Assembly (NCBI GenBank): GCA_021014325.1
Contig: CM037464.1
Location: 2,883,127-2,947,126 of the forward strand
DNA: 64,000 bases
Reading direction: 5' to 3'
Source: Plazaster borealis
Taxonomy: Eukaryota > Echinodermata > Asteroidea > Forcipulatida > Labidiasteridae
Part shown: in pieces, positions 9,316 to 57,500 of the stretch
How the letters are laid out: every line of letters begins with the position of its first letter
Position numbering within the stretch: the first letter of the stretch is position 1
Made by a program: the position numbers and the translations under genes
The notes under the pieces: model-generated
What the model was told of the DNA's origin: nothing
The model's input: only the letters and a program-made list of their open reading frames with translations
The model's database searches: none

Positions 9316-12300
9316 TCACGTCTCAAAGCTCAGAATCTGTTTCTGCGAGGTGAAGGGTTGTGAGACGGCGTCTAGGGCTGAAGCATAGTCGGACAGCGGT
9401 ACTAGTTTGTGGTTTGGCGCCCTCAATTGACCAGACTTTCCCCACTGGCAGAGTTGTGTAATCATGTGGTTAGCCTCGACACCTGCAGTTGGAGGAATAA
9501 GATATAATGTAGTCTCTGTAGCTACGGCTGTGGATGGAATGGCATAGAACTGCCGAAGCTGGCTAAGGGTGGTGCTGTATCATTACTGAATATTCATGTT
9601 GTAACTATGAAGTTGATTGGCTACTTACTATTTGCATGCCACCTGGTCATCCAATAACCAACAAGTGTGCTATCAATGAATTTACATGTTAAGACTATGA
9701 AGATGATTGGCTTCTTACTTGTTGCATGTTACTCGAGCCACCTGGTCATCCGATAACCAACAAGCTTGACATCATTGAATATTCATATTTAAGACTATGA
9801 AGATGATTGGCTACTTACTATTTGCATGTTTCTCATGCCACCTGGTCATCCAATAACCAACAAACTTGATATCATTGAATATTAAGGAGCCAGTAGGCAC
9901 TAATACCGGTTGCCTTGACATCCCACCATATGTAACTATTGTTCCACCAGGTCTGTAAAACAAAAAGTTAATTCAACAAAAAAATAATTCAACAATTTTT
10001 ATTTATTTATTGGCAAGACGTAATATTTGGCAGAACAGACAATTTTTTACGGGAAAAATCAAAAATGTGATTTTGCTTTGGAAGAACCACGACTTCCTTT
10101 TATCAAAGTAATTATCCCTGGGGGTGCCTTCTGGCTAACTGCTCATGGTCATTCATTATTGCCCTCCACTGGAGGGCCACAGACCAGGTGGCCAGAAGGA
10201 AACAAACCAATGTGCTATAGTTGCAATTTTATGAACATTGCTTTGGAAGCATTTTTGGTGCAAGGGCCGGGCTCGTAACTATTTCAATCTCAGAAGCACT
10301 TGCACCAACAAAATCTAAGCAGCACTTGCACCAACAATCTTTCTTACATATGAATTTATTTCGTCTTCATTCTTGAAACTTACTCAAGTAATTTGATCAG
10401 GGTTATTGAACTCTTTCCTCCCACAGCATTCAGGGCAAGTTTAGGTCTCGGGATTTCCTGAAATACAAAAAATACATTATTTTTCCATAAAAATTAATTT
10501 TCTGCTTGTACAAAATTACAAAGAGTGAGTAGCAGTCTTTCAAAAAAGAGAGAAGGAAAAGAAAACATTTCTTAAAAGATTTACCTTGAAAATATTAGCA
10601 GCATCTTTTCCTTTCAGTGATTCTTCTGTTACTACAGCAGTTGCACCAAGACTTTCAAGATAGGATTTCAATTTATCGAAATCCGGCCTAAAAAGGGAAA
10701 AAACATATCTTAAAACATTAATCTATTGATTCCAATTGTTGAAACTGCAAATCACTTGCACCATTTTTTAAATTCGCTCCCACCAACCATTCAGTTAAGA
10801 ATGCAACCTACAAAAATTCAGGATTAACTGAACCCCATCAATCAATCAATCTTGCACCATATTCCGCAGGACGTTGGCTCCACGAATTTTCACTCTCCAT
10901 CCTTGCCTATCTTGCACTCTTCGGTGTTCCAGGTAGAAGGTGCTGCTGGCGATGATGTCGTTTTCCCATCTCTTCCTTGGCCTACCCCATCTATTTTTCC
11001 CCTTTACTGTTTCAAGTAGGATGCGTTTTGGGAGTCTGTTGTTTTCCATTCTCACTATGTTGCCAAACCAGGCAAGTTGGATCTTGTAGATGCGCGAGGT
11101 GATTATCTCTGGTGGGTTACCACCAGCTGACACTCTCCTCCACACCTCTTCATTTCGCACCTCGTCTTGCCAGGAGATGTTCAGGGTTTTGTGGAAGCAG
11201 TGCATCTGCAAGGCTTCTAATTTATTTTGGTCTGCCTTCCTGATGGTCCAAGCTGCTGAACCATATAGAAGAACAAGATAAACGAGTGCATTTACATTTA
11301 GCTCATGCTTAAGGTTTTTAATTGACAAAAGCATCCACAAACCTGTCTCTGACGATGTTGAAGGTCTTAAGTCCTCGAGCTGCAGCAATTTGAATAACTG
11401 CTTGGCCAGCTCCGCTATTAGCTGCATTCTGTAGAACACAGTCTCCTACAGGGAGGCAAGAATAAACCTTCAATGTCAAACCCACCTTTGTCAAGTTCCC
11501 TGTGTACTGGATATCAAATTGTCAATGAACTTATGGAACCAGGCTGCTTTTCCCTTTCAGCCTCTGTTTGATTACAGGCCTTTGTCTTAAAATTAAAGTA
11601 GACAAGATGGCTGAAATGTGATAAGGGACAATAAAACACTGAAAGAGCAATACTTCTTCAACATAAAATTAATGACTATAGTGCAGCATATTAACAATAT
11701 GAGTCAGCAGTTAACACTGCACTCTCACATCCACTTTTGATATCACAAAGTTTTCTTTTTTGTTTCTTAGGTTGAGATGGATTTTAAAGGGAAGACAGTT
11801 ATAAATGCTGTTTATTATTATTATAATTATTATTATGATGAAACAAATTATTTACAGAAAACAAGAAAGACCTGGTTGTAACTCCACAAAGTCTGCAAGC
11901 ATACGGTACGCTGTACAAGCATTTACTCTTACTGTGGCTCCAATCATTACTGGTGTGTCTTGTGGAAGTGAGGCTACATGACTTGCAGGACAAACAAGAT
12001 GGCTCCTCCATGTTCCTGTTAACATGAAGAAAAAAATATCAACATTTCAAAAAATATCAAAATAACAAAATTTTCTTTGGAATTTGGCAAATTTATGGCA
12101 TGATTTTAAATGTTACACTACAGGATTATTTGTTTTTGGGTTGAACAAAGAGAAATTGAATAGAGCAGGATTTGAGCCTGGGACCTCTGGATTAAACCTG
12201 TGGTCAGACCAGCCCCTTCCTTCTAAGCCTGCCCCTTCCCCCTTTTGTCACCCTCTTCATTGTTCATCCCTTGCCTTTTCTGTGTGCTTTCTGCCTCACT

Positions 12301-13932
12301 CCCTTTCATCTCTTTCCACTTTACTGCTTTTGTTACACCAGTATAACTGTTTATGTGTGTTGTGTTGTCATTTAGCCTTCAACAAAGATTCTGCTAGGGT
12401 CGCACGTCAGACCAGTAACTACTTTTTTCAGGAGTTATTTGTATTACACTTCTCCAATGATGAATCTTATTTTTAAAAATAATACTAAATAATTAGCCGA
12501 ACTGACCTAAAGTATTCATGGCTGGAATGACCCTGTCTCCAAGTTTGACCTCTGTAACTTGATCTCCGACCTCTATGACCTCTCCAACACCTTCAAATCC
12601 ACCAACAGTCGGTAATGCTGGTTTGATCGGGTACACACCTACACCATACATAATTGATAAACAAAGTGTACAAGAATTTGATTGAGATTTTTTTTAATGT
12701 CAGTATTAATTTATTCTTTCTTGAAAAATTCTGCAATATATATTTCAGGGAAACCTTACTTAAATGAAGTTTGCAACGCCAAGTTGAAATAGAGGTAGAT
12801 ATATCACACATGCAAAACAAAACACTGGGAATTTTAAGTGGAGATAAATTCAAACCTAAACTGACAGATTTAATCAACTTTGAATAATGTTACATTGTAA
12901 TTCAACAAAATTTTGGGGGGAACAATATTGTTGGAATCTCACGAAAATATCTGCATTGAATTGAATGTCATGACTGTGGTGATAAAATGCACCTTGTATT
13001 GTGTTGATATCAGCTGGATTTATTGGAGACGCCAGCATCTTAATCTTCACTGAGCTTGAATCTACAGGTGGAAGATTTGTCTCCTTCAACCTAAAGGTCA
13101 AATTGTACACTGCTATTATAAATCATAAAAATATTAATATATTTGATTTGTAAAATTCCAGCAAAGCAAATTTGTATCCAATCATTTGAGTAATTTTTAT
13201 GTATAATGAGTTTGATAAATTGACAGCTATTTTGCCATCTGGCTTCCAGTTCTACTTTACTTATTAAAATAAAATGAATCTAAGTATAAAAGTAAAGTAT
13301 ATCCATTCAAGTTATAGTTTTTTAGGCATAATTATAATAAATAACATATTTAAAAATATAATATATATATATTAACAACTTTCTGAGTTTACAAGTATAG
13401 CCCACCTTGTTGAGCTGTAATGGCTTTCTTTTAACATCGGTCTCATAACACTCACGGTGAGTGTTGTGAGACCGATGTTAAAAGAGAGCCATTTACAGCT
13501 CAACAAGGTGGGCTAACAAGTTGTGTGAATATCAATTAATTATTCCACAATGATCGAAGCCGGTGTTACTGTTGTTATGAAGATTGAAGTGTATGATTGT
13601 TATAATGGAGGAAGGAAATCCATTTCACACACAGTCTCAGTCTGACTCTTTCAGTTTCACTGCATAATCCACTTTTAAGTTTTAAACATACTGTACTTCT
13701 GTCGTGTTCAGCTGGTGTTGTTTATATTTTTTTTAATAATCCTAAACTGAACTTAAAAAAATACTTACTGTACAACGTTTGATGGATCACCATGTTCAGC
13801 ATACACAAGCGCACGTGCAACTTGAGTATCACTGTAAAGTCTTTTAGTCTCAACTGAACTGAAAAAATGATATAATCTTGGAAATTTCATAATCTTTCGA
13901 GGAAGTCCAACAACTACACAGGGCGCTGACAT
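9316..13932 (-). CDS. MECR: Enoyl-[ACP]/trans-2-enoyl-CoA reductase, mitochondrial
   Basis: Last reductive step of mitochondrial type II fatty acid synthesis: NADPH-dependent reduction of trans-2-enoyl thioesters, feeding lipoate synthesis. Exons, 5' to 3' on -: 13769-13932, 12993-13090, 12507-12638, 11872-12015, 11343-11445, 10585-10687, 10384-10457, 9819-9952, 9316-9482. All phases match, giving 372 residues (human 373). The ATG at 13932 gives an N-terminus rich in Arg/Lys/Ser and lacking acidic residues up to about 38, as expected of a mitochondrial presequence; the open frame upstream has only a GTG. Family features: [15 protein letters not shown], the catalytic-type Tyr in [14 protein letters not shown] (about residue 90), the dinucleotide-binding [16 protein letters not shown] (about 186-201), [10 protein letters not shown], and a C-terminus ending [11 protein letters not shown]. 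It is a zinc-free medium-chain reductase. Intron 5 is largely LINE-derived, and exon 8 is followed by decayed copies of itself. Confidence 0.95.
9591..9890. repeat. Three tandem ~100-bp units copying the MECR exon 8 donor edge
   Basis: The word CCACCTGGTCATCC recurs at 9639, 9738 and 9838 (spacing 99 and 100). The rightmost unit is the true end of MECR exon 8 (translated [13 protein letters not shown], donor A|GTAAGTAG at 9818). The two units to the left lie in intron 8 and keep related coding words and GTAAG donors. The middle one has an in-frame stop after MTRWLE. Confidence 0.85.
10838..11330 (-). mobile_element. 3' end of a non-LTR retrotransposon (reverse transcriptase C-terminus)
   Basis: The translation contains [57 protein letters not shown] and [13 protein letters not shown]. 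These are the hallmark closing motifs of LINE reverse transcriptase ORFs (LLYGSE.W; WFGH..RM; GRPRKRW). The ORF ends naturally and is followed by a short GATT repeat tail (10838-10853), so the 3' end is intact and the 5' end truncated. It fills most of MECR intron 5 and starts within about 15 bp of the exon 5 donor. Confidence 0.85.
13398..13515. repeat. Near-perfect 118-bp hairpin element
   Basis: The halves are reverse complements around CACTCACGGTGAGTG. The ends read TAGCCCACCTTGTTGAGCTG and CAGCTCAACAAGGTGGGCTA. ACAAG occurs just outside both ends, a possible target duplication. It lies in MECR intron 1. Confidence 0.85.
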
Positions 13933-14207
13933 CTTGGATTTTATGTTTGCTCGAGAGAAGTACACTGTTTTCTCCACCGAGGGCCGAGGGGCGTGACAAA
14001 AATCTGGCCAATCAAAAGAGAGTAGTATGAATATTCAATAGCACTTTGACACGGGGCGTCCATCTGAAATCTGGCGCGAATGTTGGTACACACAGACTAC
14101 CTAGGTTGCTGCGGATTGTTGCACGAAACTCCTCCAAACTAGCACAAGTCTGTCTCCTAAATTCAAAGTTTTGGTGTTATTGAGGAGGATACATTCCAAG
14201 CTTTATC
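13933..14207. promoter_or_regulatory. Head-to-head MECR/PRIM2 promoter
   Basis: Only 275 bp separate the two start codons, which are transcribed away from each other. It is more GC-rich than its surroundings. It contains a CCAAT box (CCAATCA, 14008-14014), an E2F-like element (GGCGCGAA, 14073-14080; reverse complement TTCGCGCC) and GCGTGAC (13991-13997), a half CRE. No TATA box is evident. An E2F-type site fits a replication gene such as PRIM2. Sites are by consensus only. Confidence 0.6.
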
Positions 14208-17200
14208 ATGCAGTTCGGTGGAGAGCGAAAAAATGCCTACCAGAGGCAGCAGAGGGCCCGAGGAAAGGCAAGACTCAGCGGGGACCACTCGTCCCAATAC
14301 ACCCACCGATTGCAGTTCTATCGTCTGCCACCTACGGACAACATCTCGCTGAATGAATTCGAAGAGTTTGCCATTTCCAGGGTGAAAGGTAATCCTTTTT
14401 TGACATTTAGCAATATGTTTTTTAAAGGTAATATGTTTATTTGCTTGTTTGTTTAAAGTAAATACATTTTGGCTGCATGATAAAATAGCTATCCTTTTTA
14501 ATTTTAGATTTTATTTGTAATTCTAATTGTATTGTTTTACTTTATCATTTATCACAACAGTCAACAGTGCAATGAAACGAACAACTCGTACAAACCATGG
14601 AGGCTATTCCTTCCTTCATGTACAAAACAACATAAAGGGGCCTGTTTTTATTTAAACATTGAGCACTAATTAATAACAGAAGATTCAAAATGTGTATTAT
14701 GAGCAAGTACTAAAGGTTCTTCAATACTCAACAAAACTTGTGAAAGATCATGAAGATATATTGGGTTCCAAGATATTTATCAGACTCATTCAAAAAAGAC
14801 AACATTTGAACACTTTTTGTTTACTCTCCAGATATTGCATAGTTAGTGAGGTGTTATTATTAATATTATTCAATTGAAAAATACAAGACCGCCGGGTTTG
14901 TCTAGTTGTATTGCAAACATCACTGGCCTAGGCCCTGTGTAAAGTGTAAATTTTGAGCCATAATTAAAAATGATCAGGACTCAAAATTAACACTGGACCG
15001 CAGGCTGGCAGTAGGGCCGGAGCGAGGCCAGTGATTTTTTAGTGTCCAGGTAGCTAGAGGGTATTACAGATACCCCATGTATTTTTGATTTAGTTACACG
15101 ATATCAATTATAATTGATGAGATAAACTTGCTGTTTTGTGTGTTTACAGTTCTACGTCATGTTGAGCAAGCTGGCCAGAGTTACGTAAGAGGGACTGAGA
15201 AGTACAAAGAGTACATGGATAAAGAGTTGAGGCACTTGATGCCACTAGCTGTCAGAAAGGTATACAAGAATTGGGAAAAGTGCTGTGTCTAGCAAGGTTT
15301 AAGCCCGAATTTGGTAAAAGACTGTCAAAATTTGCTGGAAATTTAAAAACTGGGTGTCCCAATTGTTCACTTACATTTACAATACATTTACATGTATACA
15401 GAAAGACGCCCAGAGCCCCATACACCCCTCTGGCTAACACTTTGGTGTCTAGCAGTATACCTGCCATATTTTGTCACTCGTAACAACCACAAACAAAATC
15501 AGAGTAACTATAAATATAAATATGAATAGTAAACTTGCGGGTACAACCATGTGTAAAAGTCTCTTTTGAGGGAGTGTTGGCTCTGAAAAGAGCCGGTTTG
15601 GTCTCGACATTTCAAACAGTATACTCTGCTCGTCTTCAGGAGAATAGTTACTCTTATTCTCCTCACCATGCAAAGCTTCAAACAACAGTTACAAACAAAA
15701 TCCTTGTTAATCCTTGTTAATCTTAGATATTCTGTGCTCATTTCAACAGGATCTGAAAGATGATTTTGAGGAGAGACGGAAGGACCACATTTCTCACTTC
15801 ATTCTTAGGTTGGCTTACTGTAAATCGTAAGTAGTTTCAATTTTATCTTTTGAAATTGTGACCAAAAGCAAATTGATTTTATGTTTAGGGTTACACCTGT
15901 ATTATAAATGTATCAGTGCTATTTCTATTATTTGCTTATAAATTACTTCATCTTTTAAATGTATATACTTTTACAGAATACAATTGCTCATTTGTTCATA
16001 TTTCTCTGTTCAACTGTTTTCATGTGTTCTTTTTCCAGGTTTTCTTCACTTTATTCCTGTACTGTGATGTTTAAAAAATGTGTACATTTAACGGCTTTTT
16101 CTCTTGTCTTTAATTCTTACTTAATATTGTTTTTAGATTTTGATTTTGTTAAAACTTGATTTGATATACAATTCTAACTATAATTTTCATCTGAAATGTA
16201 TACATGTTAAGTTATTTGCAAATCATGACATATATTAGCTGAACACATGTGTAAAATTGTATTCAATATTTATTGAACTCTTCCCTGCCCTTTTCTCCCA
16301 TTTCTAGTTTTTTTTCCTCTTATTCTTTTTTTGTTTACTTGCATATTTTTTTCATTTTCTATGAACTTGTTTATATGATATAAAATGTGTTTTCTGTTCA
16401 GATTTGTTTGTATACAGTAATTTTATGTTTGTTGATATATAAATACAAACAATTTACGTTAAACAATTCCTCCTTTTGAATACAGGCTTGTATTTTGAAA
16501 ATAGATTCAATGAATGACTTGTTTGAAATGAGTTTTATAGTTTTTTCCCAAGAATGATACCACGTTTCAATTAAAGCTTACATAATGATGAAACGTCTTA
16601 TCTGATTTCTGAACTTTCATTTTCAATTTCGTTTGATGTGTTTTGTCCTGACAATTAAAGTCTTCCAAGTTTGATTAATTAAGTAAAAATTATAAAAAAT
16701 AAAAACAATTATGACTGAATTCATTTGTAATTTACAGTGAGGATTTGAGACGCTGGTTCATTTCTCAGGAGATGGATTTGTTCCGTTATCGTTTCTTGAT
16801 GGAAACTGACAAGAGAGAGGTTACACGTTTCTTACAAGAAAATGATTTGCAATTCACACCGGTAAGATCACAGATAACTCCTCAGAATTTTAAGACGACG
16901 AATAACAAATCATATCACCACAGCTAATATGAGTGCGGGATTAAGGTTTAAGCCAGTATCAATGTACATGAACTTGTTTAAAATAAAAGACGTAAAATTG
17001 TTAATGGCCTGATGTTTTGACCCCAGCTTAGTCTTTCTCAAAGCCTTTCTCAAAGGCTTTCTCAAAGGCTTTCTCAAAGGTGTTTTAGCTTTTGAGAAAG
17101 ACTCTGCTAGGGTCGAAACGTCAGACCATGAACTTTTTTTGCATTGATACCAAATGTCAATTTGGTTAGTAAGCAGTTTGCAACAGCTAATTCTACTTTC

Positions 17201-20200
17201 TCATTCAAATAAAAGAAATTTTGAAATAGAAGACGTTGCCCTTTTTTCTTGTCTTTTTTCTTTAGATTCCTGAAGACGAGAAGAAGCAGATAGCTAAGTA
17301 TCTTTGTGCCAGTAGTTTCAGCATGACGATGGCTATGATAGAACACACTGACTTCTACAAGGTATGAGCATTGGTGTTGCTATATGGGCCCAATTACATA
17401 GAGCTGCTTAAGCAGAAAACTTTGCTTAAAAATGTTCTGCTCAGCAAAACTAAGCAGGGTACCAGTCACAGTTGGTACATGTGAAATGGTATTTTGGCTG
17501 GTAACCTTATTCCGGTAAGCACAAATTTTGTTGTGCTGGGCTAGTTTTGTGCTTTGAAGCAGCTCTAAGAAATTGGGCCCTATTACTCGGGTGGGATTTG
17601 CACCCATGACCTTTGCCATTCTAGAGCAGATGTCCTACCACTAGACCACCTAGATTGCCTATGCTAGAGGCAGTTTGAATCCTATATAGGTTTTGAACTG
17701 CCTCCAGCTACCATCAATAGGATTCGAACTGCCTCTAGCTACCGGGCAGTCTCGTTGGTCTAGTGGTAAGACATCTGCTCTAGAATGACAAAGGTTCGAA
17801 TCTCACATGAGTAATATGCCTGTGGATTTTGTCAAAGGACTCGGGAAAGTACTGAGTATACAGTGCTTTACACACATCGGTAGATGGGTAAAACCAAATA
17901 ATATTCTTTATCCCCGATGCAAATTTAATGATCTATTAAAGATTTTCCTTACTTTCAAACTAGATGTAAACAATTGTCCTGGATTAACTCTTCCCTTGTT
18001 TTTCTGTAGGTTCCATTCACCGAAGCTCTTGATCTTGTCCGAGGCAGGAAGGTTTACCTTCATAAGGGTTGGGCTTACGTTCCTCATAATGACTTGGTCT
18101 CCATCATACTCAGTGCCTTCAGGTCTCACCTGTCTCAAGCTCTTGCAGTAAGTTGTACAATATCAATTACTATTGTCAAAGTTTCATTGTCTCCATGCAG
18201 TGTAAATTTCATTTTTTTGTTTGCTCAAACTTTGAATGTTATGTAAGTGCATTGTGAGTATTAAATTTCAAGCAATACTTAAAGAGGAAGGGAAATGTCA
18301 AATTTAATTTTGTGATTTACTCATTTTCTGATAGATAGAGTCCTCATGTAAGTTAGGAAAAAAAATACAAGTCTCTAACCTCACGTTAAAATGGTGTAAA
18401 TTGCCATTGTATTTGATAACCTTCTGGGGCAAAATTTGTCAACATCCCAAATTTCTCAACATCCAAAACATCCGCTTTTATTCTAAGAAAAATGGGTCTG
18501 TACATTTGTGTACAGGGATGTTTTGGTTCTTTAATGGGAGAAGACTCTAGCATGTAAAGTCAGTAAAGCGTTGGTTTGCTAGTCGGCCTCTGGTGGTAAG
18601 GCGTTGGTTTGCTAGTCAGCCTCTGGTGGTAAAACCAGTGAAGTGTTGGTTTGCTAGTCAGCCTCTGGTGGTAAAGTCAGTAAAGCGTTAGCCTTGATCA
18701 AGGCAGTCGCATTTTTCACTCCAAAAAAGACGCCGTAAACACACCCGTATGTGTGTGCGTAAGGTGTGTATCGCATCGCACGACCCACCCGTATACACTG
18801 TGTGTGTATCACGTCGTACGACGCCCGTACACACACTGTGCGCAGGTCATCCGCACTCGTACCACTCTCCGCATGCGGAGGCCGTCAGGCCGACAGCCTT
18901 GACGGGTCTGTAACTTCCGGGTTTAATGTGTTTCTTGATATTTTCGTCCAATATTGGACGAAAATGGGGGGGCTCTCGGATATGCTAGTATGCAGCTCAT
19001 GAATATTTAAATCTTTCGTCAGACCTATTGCAGACAACACAGGATGGGAAGCAAATGAATTATTCATTTTGACGTCCAATCACGAGCTTCTCTCACTATG
19101 ACCTTTGTACCATATCAATATCATGCTTGCTACATGTGATGCGATGTGAGTAGTTACCGACTTAATGGCGTTTTTGTGTAGCATTGTCTCAGCCATTTTT
19201 GACCGGTAATCTGCGAGGCTGGTCAGAGTCAGCTCACAAGTGCTGAACCCGGGCGCGGCCCCTGGAGCTTTTTGCGCTGCACTCAAGTTCCCTCATTGGA
19301 CTACCCTGATCACTCGCCATTCTTTTGGTTATTAATTCTGGAGTTGATGTAGTTTCTGCATCTGTCTTTTCCTGACATGTCCTCTCGAAGTCCGACTCTG
19401 TGCAGCCACACCGTCTTCATACTTTTGAATTGTTCTCAGACAGGGTCTTATAAGAATTTACTGCCAAACAAAAATTGACAGGATACAGCCACACATGATA
19501 CATGTGAAATAGATTTTTAGCTACCCTATTCTAGTGAATGTACTTGGGAAATTTGGTTAGGCAGCTCTTTTTTAGTGGGGCGGCCCAAATGATATAAAAA
19601 GTGCAATGAGCTATATGCCTTCATGATGAAACAATCAATAATGGTAGTTTATTGAGGTCTTTGTTTTGTATATTCTACCTCCAATGAATGCACCAACAAT
19701 GATTAAATCACTGTTTAATGATGCAAGATGGAGACAGTAGATGGTCAATCGGGCCTTACGTCACTACGAAAAATACATCAGAAAGCGTCTTCCTGCTGGA
19801 AAATGGTGTATGTAATGTATGTAACAAATCGATCCACGCAACCTCATTTGTTTAATTCCATGCCCTCATTGTCTCGCTCAGCTGAGGAGAATACGCAACA
19901 TTTTCAGATAGGTATTATTATAACAAAGTATTCCCAAATTCAAACCGGCGCGCCAGTGTAGCCACATCTGGATTCAGCATGCATATTCATAAGAATGAGT
20001 AAACAAGACTTCCGCCACTGACCAATGGGGTCTCGCCTTTCGCGCGCATTATAGTAATGAGTCATCGGCGGGGAGACAGAAACGTCAAGGCGTTGATCGG
20101 TGAGTGGCGCATACAGCTCACACGACCACGCGCGCACCGTATACTGAACACACAGACACCATGCACACAGCTCGGGCGGGTTGGTAGCTCGGGTTGGTAG

Positions 20201-23200
20201 CTCGGGTGTGTAGCGCGGCGCAAATAAAATAAAAATGAAAACAATATAATAAAATTGAGAAAAAACTCCAACGCCTTGATCAAGGCTAGTAAAGCGTTGG
20301 TTTGCTAGTCAGCCTCTGGTGGTAAAACCAGTGAAGTGTTGGTTTGCTAGTCAGCCTCTGGTGGTAAAGTCAGTAAAGCGTTGGTTTGCTAGTCAGCCTC
20401 TGGTGGTAAAACCAGTGAAGTGTTGGTTTGCTAGTCAGCCTCTGGTGGTAAAGTCAGTAAAGCGTTGGTTTGCTAGTCAGCCTCTGGTGGTAAAACCAGT
20501 AAAGTGTTGGTTTGCTAGTCAGCCTCTGGTGGTAAAACCAGTGAAGTGTTGGTTTGCTAGTCGGCCTCTTTACAAGGATGCTGATCCTACCTTTTGTTCC
20601 AAGACTCTTGGAGGTTGGGTACTTTGTTACAGTTCCAAGAAGAAGTGCAAAGCTTGATATTCACTCCTTATCTTGAATGTTTCAGGTGACAGCAAGAAGC
20701 ATTCCTCACCTTGAGGAAGATGATCGTCTACTACCCATGCTCAACAATCTTAGCAAACAGTATCTGGGACAGAACTACAGCAGTGTCAAAGCCAACGCCG
20801 GCAAGATCGAACTTAAAGACATGGACATGGTAAGTTTAAGTTTTCTGAGTTGGTTGCCGGCCAGGTTTTTTTTAAAGTCTTAGGAGTTTAGTTATAGTTA
20901 GTCATAAATGACTACAGTTAAATCTCATTTCTTGAGATCAAATCCTCAACGGTCAAATCTCGAGTCATACCTCAGCCTGACTTTTGGGGGGGGGGGGGGT
21001 TTTCAGTCAAGTTTGCCAGTTGAAAACTTCAAAAGTATTACTTACATCAACTATTTTTTTGTGCAGGTAATAATCCAAGTGTCTGTAACTAATTTTTCTT
21101 TTATTATGTTCCATTCCACAGCATGCAAGGAAGTCATTTCCTCTATGTATGCGTCAACTTCACACTGCGCTACGTGAGAGCCATCACCTTCGTCATCATG
21201 GCCGCATGCAGTACGGTCTATTCCTCAAAGGGATTGGACTGACTCTGGAACAAGCTTTGACATTCTGGAGAAGTGAATTCAGCAAGATTATGGAAATAGA
21301 TAAGGTAATCTTACTGGCCTTACATACCTGTATTATGCTGCTACCATCTTGGTCATGTTCCCTGTATCCAGTAACAGTAATGGATGCTAATATTCATTGT
21401 ACAAAAAGGAACCAGACTATTTTTCCTCCCAGCCTCGGTTTGGTTACATTGAGTTGAATGGGAGAAAATCAAGATGGCCGCACAATGATAAAGGTCTATA
21501 GGCCCCTAGTGGTCCTTGTTTACACAATAACAGAGGTTTTTGCTTTTCAAAAGGCCCCAGACTGAATCTTTCCAGTCTCTGCTAAAATCACTGGCCTCGG
21601 GCATGCGGTCCAGTGTACATTTCGAGCCTTGATTTCTTCTCGGAGACGAAGGTCAATTGAAACGCTTCTCTGTGTTTTACTTACAGTTTGACAAACAGTA
21701 TGCGTACAACGTCCGCCATAGTTACGGTAAAGAAGGCAAGCGTACGGATTATACCCCCTACAGCTGTATGAAGGTCATTATGACCAATGCCCCAGCAACT
21801 GGAGATCACCATGGTAAGAAGCTTTACAACCTTGCATCAATTGATCCTCCAGTGATAGTGACCTGTTTGTGAATTTCGGATCCCGGCCCTTGTTGCTTTG
21901 TAAAGTATTTTGTAATGCTTTTGACAGATGGTGCTGAAAGAAATTAACTTTAATTATTATTATAAGTACTGAGTCACCACTCTTTTGTTCCCATTCATAA
22001 ATACTTTTCCGCTAAAATTTTTTTTAAACTTGTACAAGTTGAGAACAAATTTGAAGGTTTAGCTTCAGCTCGCCTTGACTCTGTCTATCAATGTGGAGGG
22101 CTAAGTGGCTCCTCGCTCAAATTTCAAAATTGCACGCTTAATTTAAAACTATCGCATGCAAGTTTCAAACTTGTGTCAATAAAATATGCAACATCTGATA
22201 GCGCCCTCTTTTGATTTAATTTCCTCGTGTTTAAACACTCCTCACCAAGTTTATCTTGCACGGTTAAACATGTCCACAGGATCTCCTCTCGACCAATCAG
22301 AATGGATAAACTGTCCCAGGCATTTATGAGTTATTGTGATTAGCACTTTGTAGAGATATGATATTGTACTTTTTGTTTTTATAAGGGGGCCATTCCGTCA
22401 TTCAGACAGTAATTTACTGAAGCAGTATTTTACTGAATCATTGATTTACTAAATCATTAATTTTAATTATTGTTATAAGCACTTTGCAGAGATATGATAT
22501 TGTACTTTTCATTTTGATCAGGGTGTCCGTTCCGTCATACAGACAGCAACTTACTGAAGCAACGCCTTGCTTCTTACAAGGTCAATCAAGCAGGAGTTGA
22601 TGAGGTAAGTCAACACAGTAAGGAGAAGCCAGTTTTCTTTTCTCCAGATATTCCATCCCTGCCCCAATCCTCACATTCCAATGAGACACTCTTGGTCCTT
22701 TTGTATATTTTCTGTACCAGTTTCTTCCGCCATAACTGGGGTGCATAATGCAGGCCTGGAATTACACAGAGGCCACAGAGGCAACGGCCTCTGTTGCCCC
22801 TGGTCTTGGCCTTGGTGCCCTTTCAGAAGCTTCCAAAGATTTCCCAATGGAAGTGCCCTTTGCAAAATGAAAAATGACCTTGCCCTCTCAAAGATGAAAT
22901 TCCAGGCCTGGTACCACCAACCAGAGTTTAAAAATTTTCAAGACACCTAATCATTATTTTTGTTTTGAGTCAAGGGAGTTGGTGTTAATTGTCTTAATGT
23001 ATTCATGTCTTGGAAGATGAATAATTGTTATCCTATGATGATACGCACAAGTTCCCTCATCTTACAAATGGTTGAAGAGAAATCTTGTACTGTTAGTGTC
23101 TGAGGGTAAAATTTCATTTGACAAAGTACATGTACAAAAGATGAAATTCGAGGCCTGTAATGTTCGCAGGTTTTATCGTGTGTCACACTTACTTTTTGTA

Positions 23201-41151: not shown

Positions 41152-41480
41152 AATTGTAAAATCTGCAGCCACCCGATTGCAGAAGTCATTGGAATGAAAC
41201 AGAATGAGTCTTGGAAACAACGGCTGCTGTGTAAACTTACAGAGGCCATGGGGAAACTTTCAGCAGAATAAATTGCAACATCTGCTGCCACCCGATTGCA
41301 GAAGTCATGTGAATGAAACAGAATGAATCTTGTGGAAAAACGGCTGCTGGGGAAACTTTCACAGGCCATTGGGAACTTTCCGCAGAATAAAACGGCAAAA
41401 TCTGCTGCCACCTAGTGCAGAATACATTGGAATGAAACAGGATGAAACTTGGAATAAACAGCTGCTGGGTAAAACGGCGA
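41119..41480 (+). repeat. Tandem ~121-bp units spanning the PRIM2 stop codon and poly(A) signal
   Basis: GGCCATGGGGAAA recurs at 41121, 41244 and (as GGCCATTGGGAA) 41364, each followed by GCAGAATAAA and a CTGC.GCCACC..A.TGCAGAA word. The first unit is the coding end of PRIM2 ([10 protein letters not shown], stop). The other units are downstream and carry stops. A more diverged fragment continues to about 41700 (GGAATAA..GCTGCTGG.TAAAACGGCG). The AATAAA at 41147-41152 overlaps the stop TAA and is a candidate poly(A) signal, repeated in the later units. Confidence 0.85.
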
Positions 41481-41761
41481 CTCTACCTGACTGGGTGTTG
41501 AAGCCTTGTGACAGGTGTCAAGGAAACGCTGCAGAAGGGTCTTTTTCCCAAACCACGGTTTAATAGGCTCCGTCTCCTGGCTTCGTTTGATGTTGGAAAT
41601 TGTACAAAAAATGTACACTGCTCTAAAACTGATGATGCTAGCCGAGGTTTGGGAAGAGGACCAGAAAGAAACTTGGAATAACCGACTGCTGGATAAAACA
41701 GCGAACCACTTCAATTCAGTGGGTATAGAAAAAAGCCACGGAAAGGGGTGTCAGTGAAAAC

Positions 41762-43714: not shown

Positions 43715-46700
43715 TTATTTTCCCTTGAAGTAGTCGTTGAGGACATCGACAGCGGCAGATTCCTTACCATAGTCCTGTAAAAACCAAAGAGAGTCTTCTT
43801 AAATTTTTCACTCCAAAAATAGATGTACCTTTCGGTCCCTAATCTAACATACATGTCTTCAAGAAAGTCTTCCAGTAAATGCAAAGTGAACAGTTATCCT
43901 CAGACGCTTTTAAGGGTTCAAGATCAAGATTTCTCATCAACCATTTTGTAAGATGAGGGAACTTGTGTCTATCATCATAGGATAACAATTGCATCTTTCC
44001 AAAATAAAAAATACATGTACCACTACATAATTATAGCAAGATACGTCAGATATTCTGATCCAGCTGGATTTGTGTGCCAAAATGGATTTCATTGGTCAAC
44101 TTTGTGAATTTGGGGGTGCTGATTTCAGCAAAATACAAATTTGTCTTTAACCGTGTCTACAGTCGCCATTTTGAATTTCAAAATGGCCGCCATTTACCAT
44201 AATGTTTGGCTATTTACCTTGACGACCACACAGCTACATGCAACCACCTTCCTGGCTTTTCCTTCTCTGTCGATCTTGCAGAGTCCAGCCCACTCACCAA
44301 GCTTCTTATTGTCGTCAACCTGAAAAAATACCACATCACGTTAGTAAGACAAAGAGGGCATTCAATCTAGTGACACCGTTGCCACTGACAACTGTGAACC
44401 GTTACACAGGCAATTCCTTTCTCTAAAAAGCAACAGGAAAAGAATTGGTTGAACATTCAAACTTTCCCTGAGATTATACAGAATTATCCCTTGACCACGA
44501 GTAAAAAACATACCCAGTGATTGAAATGTTTAACTTTGTTGTCCCCCGGTATTTTTTTTTCCAGGGTTGGAAGGAAAACAAATTTAAATTTTCTTTTGTA
44601 CATGTTGTACTTGTGAAATTTCATCCTCAGACACTTACAGTACAAGATTTCTCTTCAACCATTCGTAAGATGAGGGAACTTGTGTGTATCATCATAGGAT
44701 AACAATTATTCATCTTCCAAGACATAAATACATTAAGACAATTAACACCAACTCCTTTATGACGCAAAACAACTGTGTCTTGACAAATTTTAAACTCTGG
44801 TTGGTGGTATAATCAGCCCCATATAATCAATCAAAGAAAATGTTTGATTTCGGGTGATTGAGATAAAAACTGGAACTCGTTACTCCTTGAGAATTTACCT
44901 TCAGAAGGTTGATGGAGTGTTCAGCACAGAGAGCTTCCACCAATTTCTTGTACATCGCCTCATCGCAGTTGTTAGCGAGGACACACAGATGGGCCTGACG
45001 TCTTAAAAAGAAGTAAACAAATTAGTCGTCAGTCACAAATCATTCGATTTATATCACATTTACCAAAGAATAGAGACAATAGCTGCAAATCTGAACGTTT
45101 TTTTACTGCGTCAGTCTCGAGTCAGTCTTGAATTTTCTACTTCATTGTTGGTGTCTTAAGCCAACATCAGTAGTCTATCAGGCTGAAACATCATTCTCAA
45201 GACATATCAATCGCATGAATCTTCGCTTTTTTTTCCAAATAATAATCTGAAGTAAAGCCGCATCATAATTAAAGAGCAGTTATATTATAGAGGTTCTGCG
45301 AGAAGTTCTGAATTTCTGATTTGTGTTGTTTGTTTTGCTGTCCTCTTCAAACAACGTTCCTGTTAGTGTTATAAAGAGGTAATTTGGCCAGTCCGAGCGA
45401 TCTTGTTATAACAATAGTTGACTGTAAACCGTCTTGGAATCCTCTCATAAGTTTAAAGCATTTTTGCATTATTACTATTAGTAATGAAAAAAACTAAAAA
45501 GAAATCATGTTCGGCCACCCTGAACAATCTGGGCCCAAAGTCATAGAGCTGCTTAACAGCCCATGTTGTGCTTACTGCGTAACTTTCCATTTCATAGCGC
45601 TGCGTTACCATAAGCACACGAAAAGGCATGCTAACCTTCCGGTGCTTACCAGTTACTGTGTTGGGCGCAATCTTTGAAGATGGCCTTTTTAAAATTCGCG
45701 CGGTGTGCCATTTTTTTACTGCGCGAACTTTGTTTCCTTGCATGATTTTAAAATTTGCGCAGGGTAGCTCTGGCGCACTTTTTGAACACAGCGCGATCTT
45801 TGTCGTTTGTTTGCTATAGTTAGCACGAAAATTTGAATTAGCATGAAATTGGCCCCTGATCTGAGGACTAATTTGAACTCTTCTCTGAACTCTTCAGCTG
45901 TACTCAAGTCTAGTGACTGTGAGCTTAGGCAGGGCATGCAGTATTTCTTACTTGTCCAGGGCCTTGGTAGCCTCGTGAAGACCTCTGCCTAACCCATCAT
46001 GAATGAGGGATGTTTTTAGCACTTCTTGTAGGGCAGTGTTCACGTCCATGGGTCCGCTGGCAACGGCAGCAGCCGCTGCAGCAGTGGTTTGATCATCTCT
46101 GTGGGAGTTAGGCAAAATGAAAAACCATTTTAATATTTTGTGAAGCGACAAGGAATAAATCTATATTTCCTCTGAATCTAGCTAGCCTTTCCAGAAGCAG
46201 AACCCCCCCTCACCCCTAAAAAAGTATAAATATTATATGAAATAAAACTAAAAAATGAAAATACAAGTTGATTAAAATAAAGACAAAGTATAAATTTAAA
46301 AGTGATTTGCAATTTCAATATTTGCCGGGTGTGTAAATTATTTGGTCAGCTAACTGAAATGTTGATTTTGGTTTCGTTTCAGTTCAAGTAGAAAAAAATA
46401 GGGCCTAGCGTAAAAATACACAAAAAACTTTTAACATGTTTAAGTTAAGTACTAAACTGTTTTTAAATATAAATTTAAAAGTGATTTGCACTTTCAATAT
46501 TTGCTGGGTGTTCGATAAGGTCAAATATAAATTGTTGACTGGACAACACCTTTCTCATCTGTTTTCGGAGCAGGGTCAGTTATTCTCCCGCCATTCCATG
46601 CAAGGCCATGATGGATCATTTTCATTAATGAAATTTATGCACTACGATTGTCATGGTATCGTCAACTATATTGATAGGGTTCCAGTTGGGGAATTCTAAT

Positions 46701-46852
46701 AAACACTGCAGCTGTCCACAGAGCCGATGGGGAAGCGAAGATTAGGCCACGTTGCGAATTTAGACTACGAATGATGACCGAGTATACCGACTAACAATGG
46801 AGGAAGACCCCAACATTACTAATCACGCTACTCACCCTTCCGCGTCAGACAT
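43715..46852 (-). CDS. RPS12: Small-subunit ribosomal protein eS12
   Basis: Cytosolic 40S subunit protein of the L7Ae/eL30 fold. Coding exons on -: 46836-46852, 45952-46098, 44899-45001, 44218-44319, 43715-43774. Phases match; 142 residues (human 132). Signature blocks: [91 protein letters not shown], and the end LNDYFKGK. The N-terminus is Ala-rich ([15 protein letters not shown]) and longer than in vertebrates. Splicing just after the start codon and a non-coding leader exon are typical of ribosomal protein genes. Intron 2 holds a snoRNA candidate. Confidence 0.96.
45114..45203 (-). ncRNA. Candidate C/D-box snoRNA in RPS12 intron 2
   Basis: On the minus strand: 8-bp terminal stem GTCTTGAG (45196-45203) with CTCGAGAC (45114-45121), one G-U pair. 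C box ATGATGT (45188-45194) lies one base inside the stem, and D box CTGA (45122-45125) directly abuts the 3' stem. Internal CTGA (45178-45181) and TGATGTT (45163-45169) could be D' and C', though the C to D' spacing is only six bases. The D box ends about 120 bases from the intron acceptor. RPS12 is a snoRNA host in vertebrates. I could not match the guide region (GAAAATTCAAGA before D) to an rRNA target. Confidence 0.45.
45531..45857. repeat. Family B repeat copy in RPS12 intron 2
   Basis: GGGCCCAAAGTCATAGAGCTGC at the left in consensus with 148-410, and GCATGAAATTGGCCCC at the right. The central part has repeated TGCGCGAA/TTCGCGC-like words. Confidence 0.7.
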
Positions 46853-47025: not shown

Positions 47026-47104
47026 AGAGAGGGCGTTATAATGTAAGAATGGCAACATTATGCCGCAAGAGGGAGCTCTTTCAATTTAATTGGCGCTACT
47101 ACTG

Positions 47105-47560: not shown

Positions 47561-47570
47561 TGTACCCTAC

Positions 47571-50379: not shown

Positions 50380-50380
50380 T

Positions 50381-51109: not shown

Positions 51110-51530
51110 ATATACTTAATAATAAAATTACTAGGAATTGATCGGTGAATTTTCCATAACTTTGAAAGAGGTGCGGGAATTGTTGAGGGGGTAGAATCTT
51201 TATTCTGAAGAACTTTAGCATTCGTTTCAAAAACAAAAGAGTCGATGGTTAAAGATTTAAAACTCCCAGCTGGGTTGTCTGATATGGAGTCCAAGAAGGG
51301 TGGTAGGTCCTGGAGAATTTTCCACAGGTTTGAATGAGGTCCAGGAATTGTTGAAGGGGTAAAATATTTATTCTGAAGAAACTTTGGCATCCATTTCAAA
51401 AAACAAAAGAGTCAAGGGTTAAAGAATTAAATCTCCAAGTCGGGCTGTCTAATATGGAGTCCCAGAAGGCTAGCGGGTCCTGAAGAAGATTCCGCAGGTT
51501 TGAAAGAGGTCCAGGAATTGTTGAGGTTTG
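51110..51530 (-). repeat. Three ~169-bp tandem units overlapping the FBXO last exon
   Basis: GAATTGTTGA recurs at 51177, 51345 and 51515 (spacing 168 and 170), each with the preceding GTTTGAA.GAGGTCC word and followed by matching TTTATTCTGAAGAA / AACAAAAGAGTC blocks. The rightmost unit is the C-terminal coding part (PQQFLDLFQTCG); the other two lie in the 3' UTR. Confidence 0.85.
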
Positions 51531-54500
51531 ATGTCAAAATTGATGAGTAGTTCTGGCCTCTCTTTGAGACGTGTATCTCCTTCTGGTAGAAGCTCCTTGC
51601 AGCAGGGGTGACCACCATTCTGACATAAACAACAAACAAGCAAGATTTAAAGGCACTGAACACTTTTGGAAAGTGTCAAAGACCAGTGTTCTCATTTGGT
51701 GTATCCCAACATATGCATAAAATAACAAGCCTGTGAAAATTTGGGCTCAATTGGTCATCGAAGTTGCAAGAAAATGATAAAAGAAAAAACACCCTTGTTG
51801 TACAAATTTGTGTGCTTTCAGATAGAAATAAAAACTTCTTGCAAGAAGTTTTTATTATTTTAGTGAGAAATTACCCCTTTCTCAAAAACTACGTTATTTC
51901 AGAGGGAGTTGTTTCCTACAATGTTTTATACTATCAACAGCTCTCCGTTGCTTGTTACCAAGTAAGTTTTTATGCTAATATTTGTTTTGAGTCATTACCA
52001 AACGTGTACGATACCTTTAAAGCTGATTTGCATGGATGAACTTCAACTCAATGAGGTTTGTGGTGTGCTTTATTTCTTTCAAGTCATTTTATCATGTACT
52101 TGGTTCTGAATACTTTGATAATACATCAGGAAATCTATAACCCATACTGGAGATGCTTAGGAACAAACATTATGTTAACCATTTCCCCATTTCCTGATCA
52201 TAGTTCTCTTAGCTTGCAAATAAGCATACAAAAATAATGCAACAATTCAATCGTCAATTCTCAGAAACATTTACAGTTCATAACACAAAATGCAATATCA
52301 CATGTTGTGTTGTGGCCGAGTGGTCTAGTTCACCGGACACAAGCTCTGGTGTTATCAGCAGCAGAGTGTGGGTTCGAATTCCGGTCATGACACTTGTGCC
52401 CTTGAGCAAAGCACTTGACCATAATTGCTTCGTAAAAAGTTGGGAAGGTAGTGCATTCTGCTCTACCAGCCAGGCTCCTAGTGGATGATACCCATGCCTA
52501 CATCCTTACGGACTGAAGGGGGGAACCCTGTCTCAGCCCCAGGAGTAGGTGGCAACAAGAAATATTACAAAAAAAATAAACAAATTAATCACAATATCTT
52601 TCTCACCCTCCAGAAAAGACAGTTACAGTAAGCACATAACTGCAGCAAATCTGCGTAGTCTTCATGCAGTGGATGTCTTTTGTATAGTTTCTTGTACGCT
52701 AATTTCCAATCAGTCTCCACAGGACCTTGTTGACAAACTTCCTGTATCTAAAAAATTATTTGTTTAAAGATCAAAGACTTAGTAAAAATGGCAGGAAAAC
52801 AACAAAGACACAAATGTTTTCAATAACATATAATGTAACAAACCTCCCTTATTAGGGTTATCCCCAGGTTTTTTTCAAAACTGTGGGACATTCTGGACCC
52901 AAACTTTGTAAGTTTGGCCAAAGCACCCTGAATTTAAAATGAGATCCTTGGAATTTCTTTTACTTGGGAGTTTTTCTTTGATTTTAAAAGCTCTACTGTG
53001 CAATCTGGGGCATTCTAATTGGTTTTAACTTTATGATTGGGAATTTGATCTGAAGTCAAAAAATGTGGCTGCATTACTCGCTTATCGGCCTGCAATTTAC
53101 GTGCATAGGCCCGATACACTAACTTGTGCGTGGGGAGAACCCAGCTATTATGAGTGGTGGTGGTTCTGAAATTGTTAATTAACCAAAATGTTTCAGAACC
53201 ATCATAACTCGTTGAGAGATTAATGGAATAAAGTTAGAATTGGCTGGATTTGGGAAGCATCTAAATACCCCAAATAGACCCTGCACATACCCATGTATTA
53301 AGCCCAGTTCATACTCCCTGTGAATGCTTTGTGCGAAGTGAATTTGACGTCACAACTCTGTTTTCGCTGTGAATGTTTCGCAAGAGTTGAGCACAGCTCA
53401 ACGCTTCTGAATTGAAGGAAGTATGAACCAGGCTTTACTTGGGCCATTGGTAACTCATGTAACATCAAGCTTAGACACTTCAGTCATCGGTAATTTGTAC
53501 CCCTATCAAACTTAGACAGTGAGCTATGTGGTATGTCTTCATTACGTTAACCTTGTTAAAGGTATCGTACACGTTTGGTAATGACTCAAAACAAATATTA
53601 GCATAAAAACTTACTTGGTAACAAGCAACGGAGAGCTGTTGATAGTATAAAACATTGTAGGAAACAACTCCCTCTGAAGTAACGTAGTTTTTGAGAAAGA
53701 GGTAATTTCTCACTAAAATAATAAAAACTTCTTGCAAGAAGTTTTTATTCCTATCTGAAAGCACACAAATTTGAACAACATGGGTGTTTTTTCTTTCATC
53801 ATTTTCTTGCAACTTCGATGACTAATTGAGCCCAAATTTTCACAGGTTTGTTATTTTATGCATATGTTGGGATACACCAAGTGAGAACGCTGGTCTTTGA
53901 CAATTTCCAAACGTGTTCAGTGCCTTTAATTTGTCTGTTATACTAGCGTCTTGCCAGAACGAGAATTACCTGACTCGGTGTAAAATGATACCGACACAGA
54001 TCCTTCCATAGGAAATTCTCAGAAGCCACTAAGTACATCTGGTAGTTTGTTTTGCCAGCGTTTACAATATCTCTATGATCGCTCAGATGGTTGAGTACTC
54101 TACTTAAGACTTCATCGGGTAGATCTGTCAGCTTCAACAATCCATCCTCCTCCCTCTGCGATAGGAAAACGAAAGACAACTTTTGTATAAAAAATGAAAA
54201 CAATTTTATCCCAGAAATTTTAAATTAACTTTACAGTTAAAGGCACTGGACACTATTGGTAATTACTCAAAATAATTGTTAGCATAAAAACTTATTGGTA
54301 ACGAGCAATGGAGAGCTGTTGATAGTATTAAACAAATTGTGAGAAACGGCTCCCTCTGAAGTAACAAAGTTTTTGAGAACGAAGTAATTTCTCACTAAAA
54401 TATTTGATTTGATTTCGAGACCTCAGCTGAGGTCTCGAAATCAAGCATCTGAAAGCACACATCTTGGTGCGACAAGGGTGCTTTTTCTTCCATTATTCTC

Positions 54501-57500
54501 TCGCAACTTTGACGACCAATTGAGTTAAAATTTTCACAGGCTTGTTATTTTGTGCGTATGTTGAGATACACCAAGTGAGAAGACTGGTCTTTGACAATTA
54601 GGCTACCAAAGGTGTCCAGTGTCTTTAAAACCTTCTTTCTAATACAGTTGTTTGGTGGTGCAAGCATTTTCAGAAATAAACAAAGCAACTCCAAAATGAT
54701 GAATTCCCTCCCAAACCCCCCCCCCCAAAAAAAAAAACCCCACCATCTTATATCAGAACACTCAACCTGATCATAAATTATCTGGAAACCTCATCAAAGG
54801 CATCATTGTCTGCAATAAATATTTTAAATAGGCATGTTACCTCTCTGACTTGAATGTTATCCAATTTCGCCAACCACCCCTGAAGCATCTTCAAGCGCCC
54901 GCTCCAGGTTGCTTGGCAACCAACGTGAGATGCAAAACTGTTGTTCATAGCAACAATAGCCCCACATAGGATTCTCCTGACTTGCTCCATGTTGTGGTGG
55001 GTCACGCTGACTACATAAAATTAAAATAAAATGAAATCAAAATTGAAAAGAACATTACTGTAATCTGTACAATAAAGTTTGAACTTGAAGACATTTACGA
55101 ATAGTGAAATGTTCTTTCAATCATCTTTTTGGTGAACAGTCTTAAAGAAATTAATCCTTACCAAGGTTAATGATTTCCTCAAGAACATTGAAGAGATCTT
55201 TCTGAGCCAAGCCACTCAGGGAGGAGAAACAAGTAGTTACAATCAATTCTAGAAGCTGGAGAGACAAAGAATAAGAGAATTGTAAGCTTTACCCTCGTAA
55301 ATACACATAGTTGAATCTCCTATAATCTCCTACTGCACCAGCTAAGGCTAGACTGGCAACCAGTCCCACTGCCCCCACCTTCCCCTCACCTCTCCCCCTA
55401 ACCTCACCCTCACATACGTACCCTGCACACATAGTTGAATCTCCTATAATCTCCTACTGCACCAGCTAAGGCTAGACTGGCAACCAGTCCCACTGCCCCC
55501 ACCTTCCCCTCACCTCTCCCCCTAACCTCACCCTCACATACGTACCCTGCACACATAGTTGAATCTCCTATAATCTCCTACTGCACCAGCTAAGGCTAGA
55601 CTGGCAACCAGTCCCACTGCCCCCACCTACCCCTCATCTCTCCCCCAAACCCCACCCTTTCCCTCACCTCTCCCCCACCTCCTCACCCCTCATCACCCCT
55701 GCACACATAGTTGAATCTCCTATAATCTCCTACTGCACCAGCTAAGGCTAGACTGGCAACCAGTCCCACTGCCCCCACCTTCCCCTCACCTCTCCCCCTA
55801 ACCTCACCCTCACATACGTACCCTGCACACATAGTTGAATCTCCTATAATCTCCTACTGCACCAGCGAGGTCCAACTTACAGATCATCTCCCCAATTGTG
55901 TAATACATCCCTCTCGCCTGGAATACAAAAACGCAATTGTATCAAAATTAAGATGCAAAAATTGACTAGAGCAGGACTTGAACCTGCGACCTCCGGAATA
56001 ACGTGCCGGCGCTCTTCCAATTGAGCTTTCTAGCCCTACTATTGGTCCAAGGGGGTGCCAAGTCAGAATTGACAAAATAAGGAGACTGCCAACATTAGGG
56101 CTAGATAGCTCAGTCAGTTTCCCTTAATTTATTACTCAAATTAACCCCCACTTCAATGAAAGAAAACCAGTGTCAACAAGAAAATGTAAACATATGATGA
56201 CTATATCTTTTGCATTTTTGAAAAATCTTTAATCTAACACTGTCAATTATTAACATCACTGACATTATCCAATACAACAAAATAAAGAAATACAAATTAA
56301 TGAGAAAAACAAAAAAAATACATTTTTACTTACCCCAGCCGATCTTGGAATTAATACAAATGAAGTCTGTGGCTTGTCTGAAAAAAAGAAGAAGCTTTTA
56401 TGATCTTATATGAAACAAATAGAAATAAATTGACCTTTTCAGAATTAAGTAGTCTCCCGAATTCCAAAATCTACTACGCGGCAGTAGAACAAATAGCAAG
56501 ACAAGTTCTCAAAGAGCAAAATCTACACTATATACAGCAAAGAAGACATATACACATGTAGTGTTACCGCAAATTGTATACCTCGACATGCAATGCCTCA
56601 AAACTCACATGAATTGGCCTCATAACAATTTGAATCACTTGGTTTTTGTTTTAGTCACTAAATCAAAAGAGATACAAGAAGATTCAATTTTTCAGAAAAA
56701 CTTTTAATTATGATTGACTGATCATTCAGATGGGATTATTATTTTTTTTGCTATTACCTTTTTACCAAGTTTCTAACGAACCACTTAAATCGTTGCGGTA
56801 CCCACTGCTAAAACATAGGATTCAAACTGCCTCTAGCCACCGGGCTAGTTCGGTGGTCTAGTGGTAAGACGTCTGCTCTAGCAATGCAAAGGTCGTGGGT
56901 TCGAATCCCAACAAAGCGATTTGCATGTGGATTTTTTTCACAGAACTCGGAAGAGTACCGAGTATACTAGTACTAGTGCTTAATACAAATCTGTGTAAGG
57001 GTAAAAAACTAATTATATATAACCACAGTTAAATGTATTGTACACGTTTGGTAATGACTCAAAACAAATATTAGCATGAAAACTTACTTGGTAACAAGCA
57101 ACGGAGAGCTGTTGATAGCATAAAACATTGTAGGAAACGACTCCCTCGGAAGTAACGTAGTTTTTGAGAAAGAGGTAATTTCTCACAATAAAAACTTCTT
57201 GCAAGAAGTTTTTATTCCTATCTGAAAGCACACAAATTTGTACAACAAGGGTGTTTTATCTTTTATCATTTTCTTGCAACTTCGATGACCAATTGAGCCC
57301 AAATTTTCACAGGCTTGTTATTTTATGCATATGTTGGGATACACCAAGTGAGAACGCTGGTCTTTGACAATTTCCAAACGTGTTCAGTGCCTTTAAACCT
57401 TTGTTTATAATTGACTGTAAACCTCCGAGCATTTTTAATCAAGTATGTGGCTTGACTTACCAATCTCTTGATATTCATTGTGCATACTTTCACTTTCAAT

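Follow-up and report, generated by a model that had tools for sequence, protein, structure and literature searches.

Tandem duplicates straddling exon edges in three genes of the sea star Plazaster borealis

Introduction

Why should five local duplications in one short stretch of a sea-star genome each take in the edge of an exon? The question is raised by a 64-kb window of Plazaster borealis (contig CM037464.1, positions 2,883,127 to 2,947,126), which is the whole stretch of DNA analysed here and was singled out for its exon-edge arrays. Throughout, coordinates are positions in this window. A first-pass annotation had described the five arrays and had offered two readings, a duplication process biased towards exon boundaries or a tolerance of decoy sites. 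We find that the arrays are real and that an ordinary duplication process is the most likely source, while a bias towards exon edges is undecided.

Results

Structure of the five arrays

Arrays were located by combining Tandem Repeats Finder (TRF) with self-alignment, and exon edges were taken from spliced models of the window genes, which give intact proteins. Each of the five arrays contains exactly one coding edge, and together they fall in MECR, PRIM2 and a gene for an FBXO25/32-like F-box protein (hereafter FBXO). In all five, one exon stays complete and the extra copies, called decoys below, lie outside it.

9316-13932, minus strand: MECR, spliced model of 9 exons
9819-9952, minus strand: MECR exon 8 in the spliced model
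9581-9883, minus strand: array A, three copies of about 100 bp; edge 9819, donor of MECR exon 8
9784-9883, minus strand: authentic copy of array A, with the final 65 bp of MECR exon 8, the donor and the intron start
9581-9783, minus strand: two decoys of array A, both carrying a GTAAG donor, in the intron preceding the last MECR exon
14208-41151, plus strand: PRIM2, spliced model of 13 exons
22331-22561, plus strand: array B, two copies at offset 136; edge 22522, acceptor of PRIM2 exon 10
22467-22561, plus strand: authentic copy of array B, with the intron end, the acceptor and the first 40 bp of PRIM2 exon 10
22331-22424, plus strand: decoy of array B in the intron, upstream of the authentic copy, with AG at the acceptor place
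41118-41473, plus strand: array C, about three copies of 119 bp at the PRIM2 stop (41151)
41120-41239, plus strand: authentic copy of array C, with the final 32 bp of PRIM2 coding sequence including the stop (41151), and 3' flank
41240-41480, plus strand: two decoys of array C, downstream of the PRIM2 stop
41662-41704, plus strand: extra partial copy of array C, 43 bp, 84%
51470-61907, minus strand: FBXO, spliced model of 9 exons
51144-51524, minus strand: array D, 2.2 copies of about 169 bp at the FBXO stop (51470)
51355-51524, minus strand: authentic copy of array D, with the final 55 bp of FBXO coding sequence including the stop, and 3' flank with AATAAA
51135-51354, minus strand: one full and one partial decoy of array D, downstream of the FBXO stop
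55303-55866, minus strand: array E, five copies by alignment, unit 124 bp; edge 55822, donor of FBXO exon 4
55743-55866, minus strand: authentic copy of array E, with the final 45 bp of FBXO exon 4, the donor and the intron start
55303-55742, minus strand: four decoys of array E, occupying most of the FBXO intron to exon 5

Arrays A, C, D and E are listed by TRF as tandem arrays of long units (more than about 10 bp), that is, as minisatellites or tandem repeats, and consist of head-to-tail copies with the exon edge inside the unit (9819, 41151, 51470 and 55822). The five edge positions of the first-pass annotation were all recovered by TRF and self-alignment taken together with the spliced models, in three genes instead of the four that it had counted, and its statement that the units copy donors, an acceptor region and a stop was borne out. 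Its figures for MECR exon 8 (three copies of about 100 bp) also agree with ours. For PRIM2 exon 10, the two copies and the 136-bp offset stand and the tandem arrangement does not, since the similarity covers only 95 bp at that offset: array B is a spaced duplicate, not strictly head-to-tail, and is absent from the TRF list as a 136-bp array. The last exon of PRIM2, given as three copies of about 121 bp, has about three of 119 bp and, in addition, the partial copy at 41662-41704. In FBXO exon 4 the five copies of a 124-bp unit were found again, with the last partial and one grown to 152 bp, and the unit of about 169 bp in the last FBXO exon recurs 2.2 times, with a partial third copy, instead of three full times. 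The AATAAA that it placed with the copied stop occurs in two copies of array D (51372 and 51204), where the third copy is partial; in array C, the AATAAA (41147) overlaps the PRIM2 stop codon and is therefore not evidently a poly(A) signal. Of the four decoys of array E, two match the authentic copy exactly, another combines a mutated donor with a 28-bp gain, and the last ends before the donor.

Two neighbouring features were observed at these arrays. The 3' flank of PRIM2 holds an insert with inverted-repeat ends (41536-41665, by eye), with copies of array C on either side. Two tRNA matches in FBXO introns (55963-56035, minus strand, 54.6 bits; 56847-56919, plus strand, 32.6 bits) are the only Rfam matches at the gathering score over the window; the former is 45 bp upstream of FBXO exon 4, near array E.

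Divergence of the copies and states kept in decoys

The closest protein matches are from Asterias amurensis for FBXO (85% identity) and MECR (92%), and from Asterias rubens for PRIM2 (89%, computed without exon 17266-17361). All three matches point to an asteriid-like sea star. The exon left out of that computation was identified by comparison with A. rubens PRIM2, and counting it puts array B at exon 10, in agreement with the first-pass numbering. Models and sea-star proteins agree across the array edges, by alignment for FBXO and by eye for MECR and PRIM2; the C-terminal end of PRIM2 is two residues longer than that of A. rubens PRIM2 (by eye).

Taken per part, the first decoy is 84-97% identical to the authentic copy in arrays A, C and D. 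In array B the figure is 87% for the intron part and 72% for the exon part, and in array E 98% (exon) and 85% (intron), with two further decoys at 100%. Codons 12 and 14 of array D read Ile and Phe in the authentic exon, Lys and Ser in decoy 1, Lys and Thr in decoy 2, and Asn and Ser (A. amurensis, P0001) or Lys and Ser (P0002) in the relatives. The authentic exon of array C is one GTT codon longer than decoy 1 and the A. rubens protein (by eye), and decoy 2 is likewise shorter (by eye). At codon 5 of array A, decoy 1 shares Val with A. amurensis and the authentic exon has Ile; this is weak as a fossil state because Patiria and Acanthaster have Leu. By these comparisons, decoys keep coding states seen in relatives that the working exon has lost, clearly in array D, by one codon in array C and weakly in array A. 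At the other differing codons of arrays A and D where the relatives agree, either the authentic copy matches them and a decoy departs, or the change is silent; codon 18 of array A and a few codons where the relatives differ are uninformative. Such departures are as expected for unconstrained copies, and decoys of arrays A, B and D are damaged as coding sequence by a stop, by gaps or by loss of the stop codon. In array E the copies have Tyr in common at a codon that reads His in P0001 and P0002, so that this array is either younger than the His/Tyr change or homogenised; it is recent, with identical 124-bp copies.

Decoy splice sites and their predicted consequences

Donors were scored with a weight matrix built from 32 authentic donors; the scores are rough, since few sites went into the matrix and the authentic ones are among them. 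The MECR exon 8 donor scores 9.0 and its two decoys 7.4 and 9.0. For FBXO exon 4, the authentic donor and two identical decoys score 9.5, the third decoy scores -7.9 and the fourth copy stops short of the donor; no evident pyrimidine tract precedes the exon-like part of the FBXO copies (by eye). The PRIM2 exon 10 acceptor scores 9.2 and its decoy 9.9. The decoy donors are too few for a constraint test.

Modelled use of a decoy gave a premature stop at all five sites tried (two MECR donors, two FBXO donors and one PRIM2 acceptor), 92 or 182 nt before the last junction in MECR, 855 or 979 nt in FBXO and 341 nt in PRIM2. A stop farther than 50-55 nt upstream of the last junction marks an RNA for decay, and under this rule the decoy-spliced RNAs would be so marked. 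The idea that the decoys serve as extra coding sequence was rejected on account of these early stops and, for FBXO, of the lack of an evident pyrimidine tract.

Similarity and position compared with chance

An ungapped self-alignment scan of the window (offsets 30-500, score at least 20) gave 12 loci, and no locus at a score of at least 18 arose in six dinucleotide-preserving shuffles; the similarity of the local repeats is far beyond chance. Five of the 12 loci hold a coding edge and seven do not. Lowering the score to 18 raises the count to 17 loci, six with an edge, the sixth being a spaced repeat at offset 456 that reaches the edge at 23721. The edges counted are the 74 coding edges of the spliced models; exons of untranslated regions and any gene at 1-9.3 kb fall outside the count. 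All position tests are post hoc.

Counted by edges, 6.8% of the edges (5/74) fall in the 12 loci, which take up 6.5% of the window (P 0.53); circular shifting gave a mean of 4.8 expected against 5 observed (P 0.54), and the TRF list by itself covers 5.2% of the window with 3 of the 74 edges (P 0.75). Counted by spans, 5 edge-bearing loci stand against 3.0-3.5 expected for the 12 loci (P 0.16-0.24; joint circular shift P 0.13), and 6 against 4.0-4.6 for the 17 loci (P 0.19-0.30). For loci with a best offset of at least 80 (9 loci, 5 hits), P is 0.08-0.14 by span and 0.008-0.015 by unit. With arrays listed by hand and PRIM2 exon 17266-17361 left out, nine arrays gave P 0.043 by span, 0.061 by circular shift and 0.0016 by unit, eight (one dropped) 0.040 and 0.0012, and seven 0.016, 0.010 (circular) and 0.0009; with this exon, the values are 0.048-0.085 (span) and 0.0018-0.0036 (unit) for nine, and 0.017-0.032 and 0.0009-0.0017 for seven. 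Across all nulls and lists except the TRF-only one, P ranges from 0.0005 to 0.54.

Coding bases are scarce in the loci (3.1% of coding bases lie inside, versus 6.9% of non-coding bases), which fits the prediction of a selection filter. We also considered that boundary arrays might be easier to detect through a conserved exon half, and rejected this: similarity is about equal in the exon halves and in the intron or flank halves, so that the arrays are detectable regardless and the exon side is not special.

Other repeats and genes of the window

Three of the repeat loci without a coding edge served for comparison.

59323-59551: array F in FBXO intron 1, a perfect tandem pair of 114-bp units
62758-63270: unit of about 206 bp, 2.4 copies, upstream of FBXO
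20288-20569: in a PRIM2 intron, 6.7 copies of a 42-bp unit

The 114-bp unit of array F corresponds to 38 codons, with a frame open on each strand, and holds the palindrome CATGACCATATATGGTCATG, most of which is also found near 60540; Pfam searches with the open reading frame (ORF) across 59323-59551 and with two left-hand ORFs gave no match. The 42-bp unit, a multiple of three, forms two arrays 1.7 kb apart in the same PRIM2 intron (18554-18689 and 20288-20569), and one open frame runs through the latter. A dispersed element of about 390 bp occurs in five copies (40314-40718, 51637-52032, 53555-53929, 54236-54628 and 57028-57396); its ends are inverted-repeat and TTAA-like (by eye), and none of the five copies contains a coding edge of the models.

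43715-46852, minus strand: gene that we take to be RPS12, spliced model of 5 exons
33203-35920, minus strand: single-exon gene that we label TRIM-like, nested in a PRIM2 intron

The TRIM-like label is consistent with RING fingers found by Pfam in the ORF (first 301 residues only). Three similar sequences lie in RPS12 introns (43925-44016 and 44643-44733, minus strand) and in a PRIM2 intron (about 22985-23105, plus strand). Their motifs (ATGATGA, CTGA and a short terminal stem) resemble those of C/D-box snoRNAs; none of the three has an Rfam match at the gathering score or folds better than shuffles, and a lax Rfam threshold over the RPS12 stretch gave two matches, both far under the gathering scores. 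The start codons of MECR and PRIM2 stand head to head with 275 bp between them (13932-14208), an arrangement that suggests a shared promoter region.

Discussion

The arrays probably arose by neutral local duplication, filtered so as to leave one exon complete, with the surplus piece outside it. We infer the neutrality, the duplication mechanism and the actual choice of splice site as follows. Ordinary local tandem duplication of segments of about 100-170 bp would act at several places in a lineage rich in tandem repeats, and some duplications would happen to straddle an exon edge. Those inside coding sequence or across whole exons would mostly be lost to selection. A duplication over a single edge leaves one exon intact and can therefore survive. 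Its surplus exon end in the intron or 3' flank would then decay as a fossil carrying a decoy donor, acceptor or stop. Slippage or unequal exchange may later have raised the copy number, with array E as the most recent case. Splicing would use the site adjoining the complete exon, and use of a decoy would lead to premature stops. This explanation agrees with the seven of 12 repeat loci that lie off the edges, including the perfect 114-bp intron pair. The edge-wise count at the base rate, the shortage of coding bases in the loci, the comparable similarity of the array halves, and the coding damage and older states of the decoys also speak for it. A TRF share of 13.95% in an A. amurensis assembly, obtained under other settings (PMC11090083, available excerpt; 5.2% of the present window), suggests that tandem repeats are common in the sea-star group; the excerpt of another A. 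amurensis paper gives 1.00% for simple repeats (PMC10625585).

Several results weigh against this explanation. The unit-length test on the 12 loci found 5 edge-bearing loci where 1.6-1.9 were expected (P 0.013-0.024), and when whole-exon and within-exon placements, those that selection would remove, were excluded, the expectation was 1.8-2.1 for spans (P 0.024-0.046) and 1.4-1.6 for units (P 0.007-0.015). Six hand-listed arrays (one dropped), without exon 17266-17361, gave P 0.0095 by span and 0.0005 by unit. Moreover, most decoy donors are well kept, four of the six copies scoring near authentic sites, and a single 64-kb window is insufficient to set a rate.

An unlikely alternative is that exon edges, through composition change, repair or transcription, favour duplication or its survival. 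The tests just given speak for it (5 of 12 loci against 1.4-2.1 expected when unit length is used or whole-exon placements are left out, P 0.007-0.046), as does array E, which is strongly G-rich on the coding strand (GC skew of the 54-56 kb bin -0.298 on the plus strand). It is opposed by the edge-wise count, which equals the base rate, by the span tests (P 0.13-0.24 for 12 loci and 0.19-0.30 for 17) and by the post hoc choice of the window. A boundary bias is thus possible and not shown, because the window was chosen for the pattern and n is small. The boundary-biased process of the first-pass annotation was accordingly not demonstrated. Its expectation that five arrays in 64 kb exceed chance is upheld for the similarity itself and not for an excess at exon edges, and its remark that the five sit on boundaries holds; the other seven loci have no coding edge. 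The tolerance of decoy sites that it also suggested would fit the intact frames found beside mostly near-authentic decoy scores.

Such decoys might also be functional, the copied donors, acceptor and gene ends regulating output, for instance by unproductive splicing. Decoy donor scores of 7.4-9.5 beside authentic ones of 9.0 and 9.5, the acceptor pair (9.9 versus 9.2) and the stops 92-979 nt before the last junction for the five modelled sites are compatible with this. However, the site is gone from two of the six decoy donor copies, the exon parts of the decoys drift and array E is too young for a conservation signal; as a claim of regulated use drawn from sequence, we regard it as quite improbable. 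Mis-joined haplotypes or reads are a very improbable source of the copies. Identical copies in array E and in the 114-bp pair of array F would suit such an artefact, whereas the copies of arrays A, B, C and D differ by about 3-28% per part (authentic versus first decoy) and one copy of array E has its own 28-bp gain. Because decoys of arrays D and C hold states of the relatives that are absent from the working exon, the divergent arrays are not assembly errors, and the view that all arrays are such errors was rejected on copy divergence and fossil coding states.

The case shows that a striking count, five in one window, can fade or stand according to what is counted, edges or arrays. Even without a bias, the loci are natural versions of duplicated-splice-site tests, the classical experiments of this kind having been made in globin RNA. 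In FBXO, an identical 45-bp exon end with its donor occurs three times (authentic and two decoys) before one acceptor, and array E would allow a direct test of how the site adjoining the complete exon is chosen. The decoys also serve as fossils of exon sequence that hold states lost from the working exon. If the bias were true, it would be a mutational route feeding intron gain and alternative ends. The broader proposal is that short tandem duplication in asteriid sea stars preferentially captures exon edges and so continuously supplies introns and gene ends with decoy donors, acceptors and stops, which would preserve earlier exon sequence and serve as material for new introns or alternative ends; in our judgement it is unlikely.

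Among the matches listed in a search that left subscription journals mostly outside, we recognised no survey of tandem units at exon edges. Individual tandem duplications crossing exon boundaries are already known elsewhere. In potato RdRp, according to the portion of PMC4974935 available, a tandem duplication across an intron-exon boundary made a new intron. There as here, a duplication over one exon edge copies splice signals beside the original structure; unlike that case, no new intron is evident here, and the coding models keep one exon, with the copies placed in the intron or 3' flank. The same text describes a model of exonic AGGT-segment duplication (ATP2A1, Hellsten 2011), which resembles our arrays in that local duplication supplies spare splice signals and differs in its exonic segment, since the present units cross exon/intron or stop/3'-flank edges. 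For the stwintrons of Lipomyces, duplications of 4-7 nt donor elements leading to nested introns have been proposed (PMC7138796, excerpt). These too involve 5' donor elements duplicated at the start of one intron, whereas our units are 100-124 bp long and include exon sequence, with no nested intron evident. Intron 1 of an earthworm metallothionein gene carries a minisatellite-like array, discussed in the available part of PMC12783039 without a role in protein function. It is likewise a tandem array within an intron of a working gene, but the unit in arrays A, B and E of P. borealis includes an exon end.

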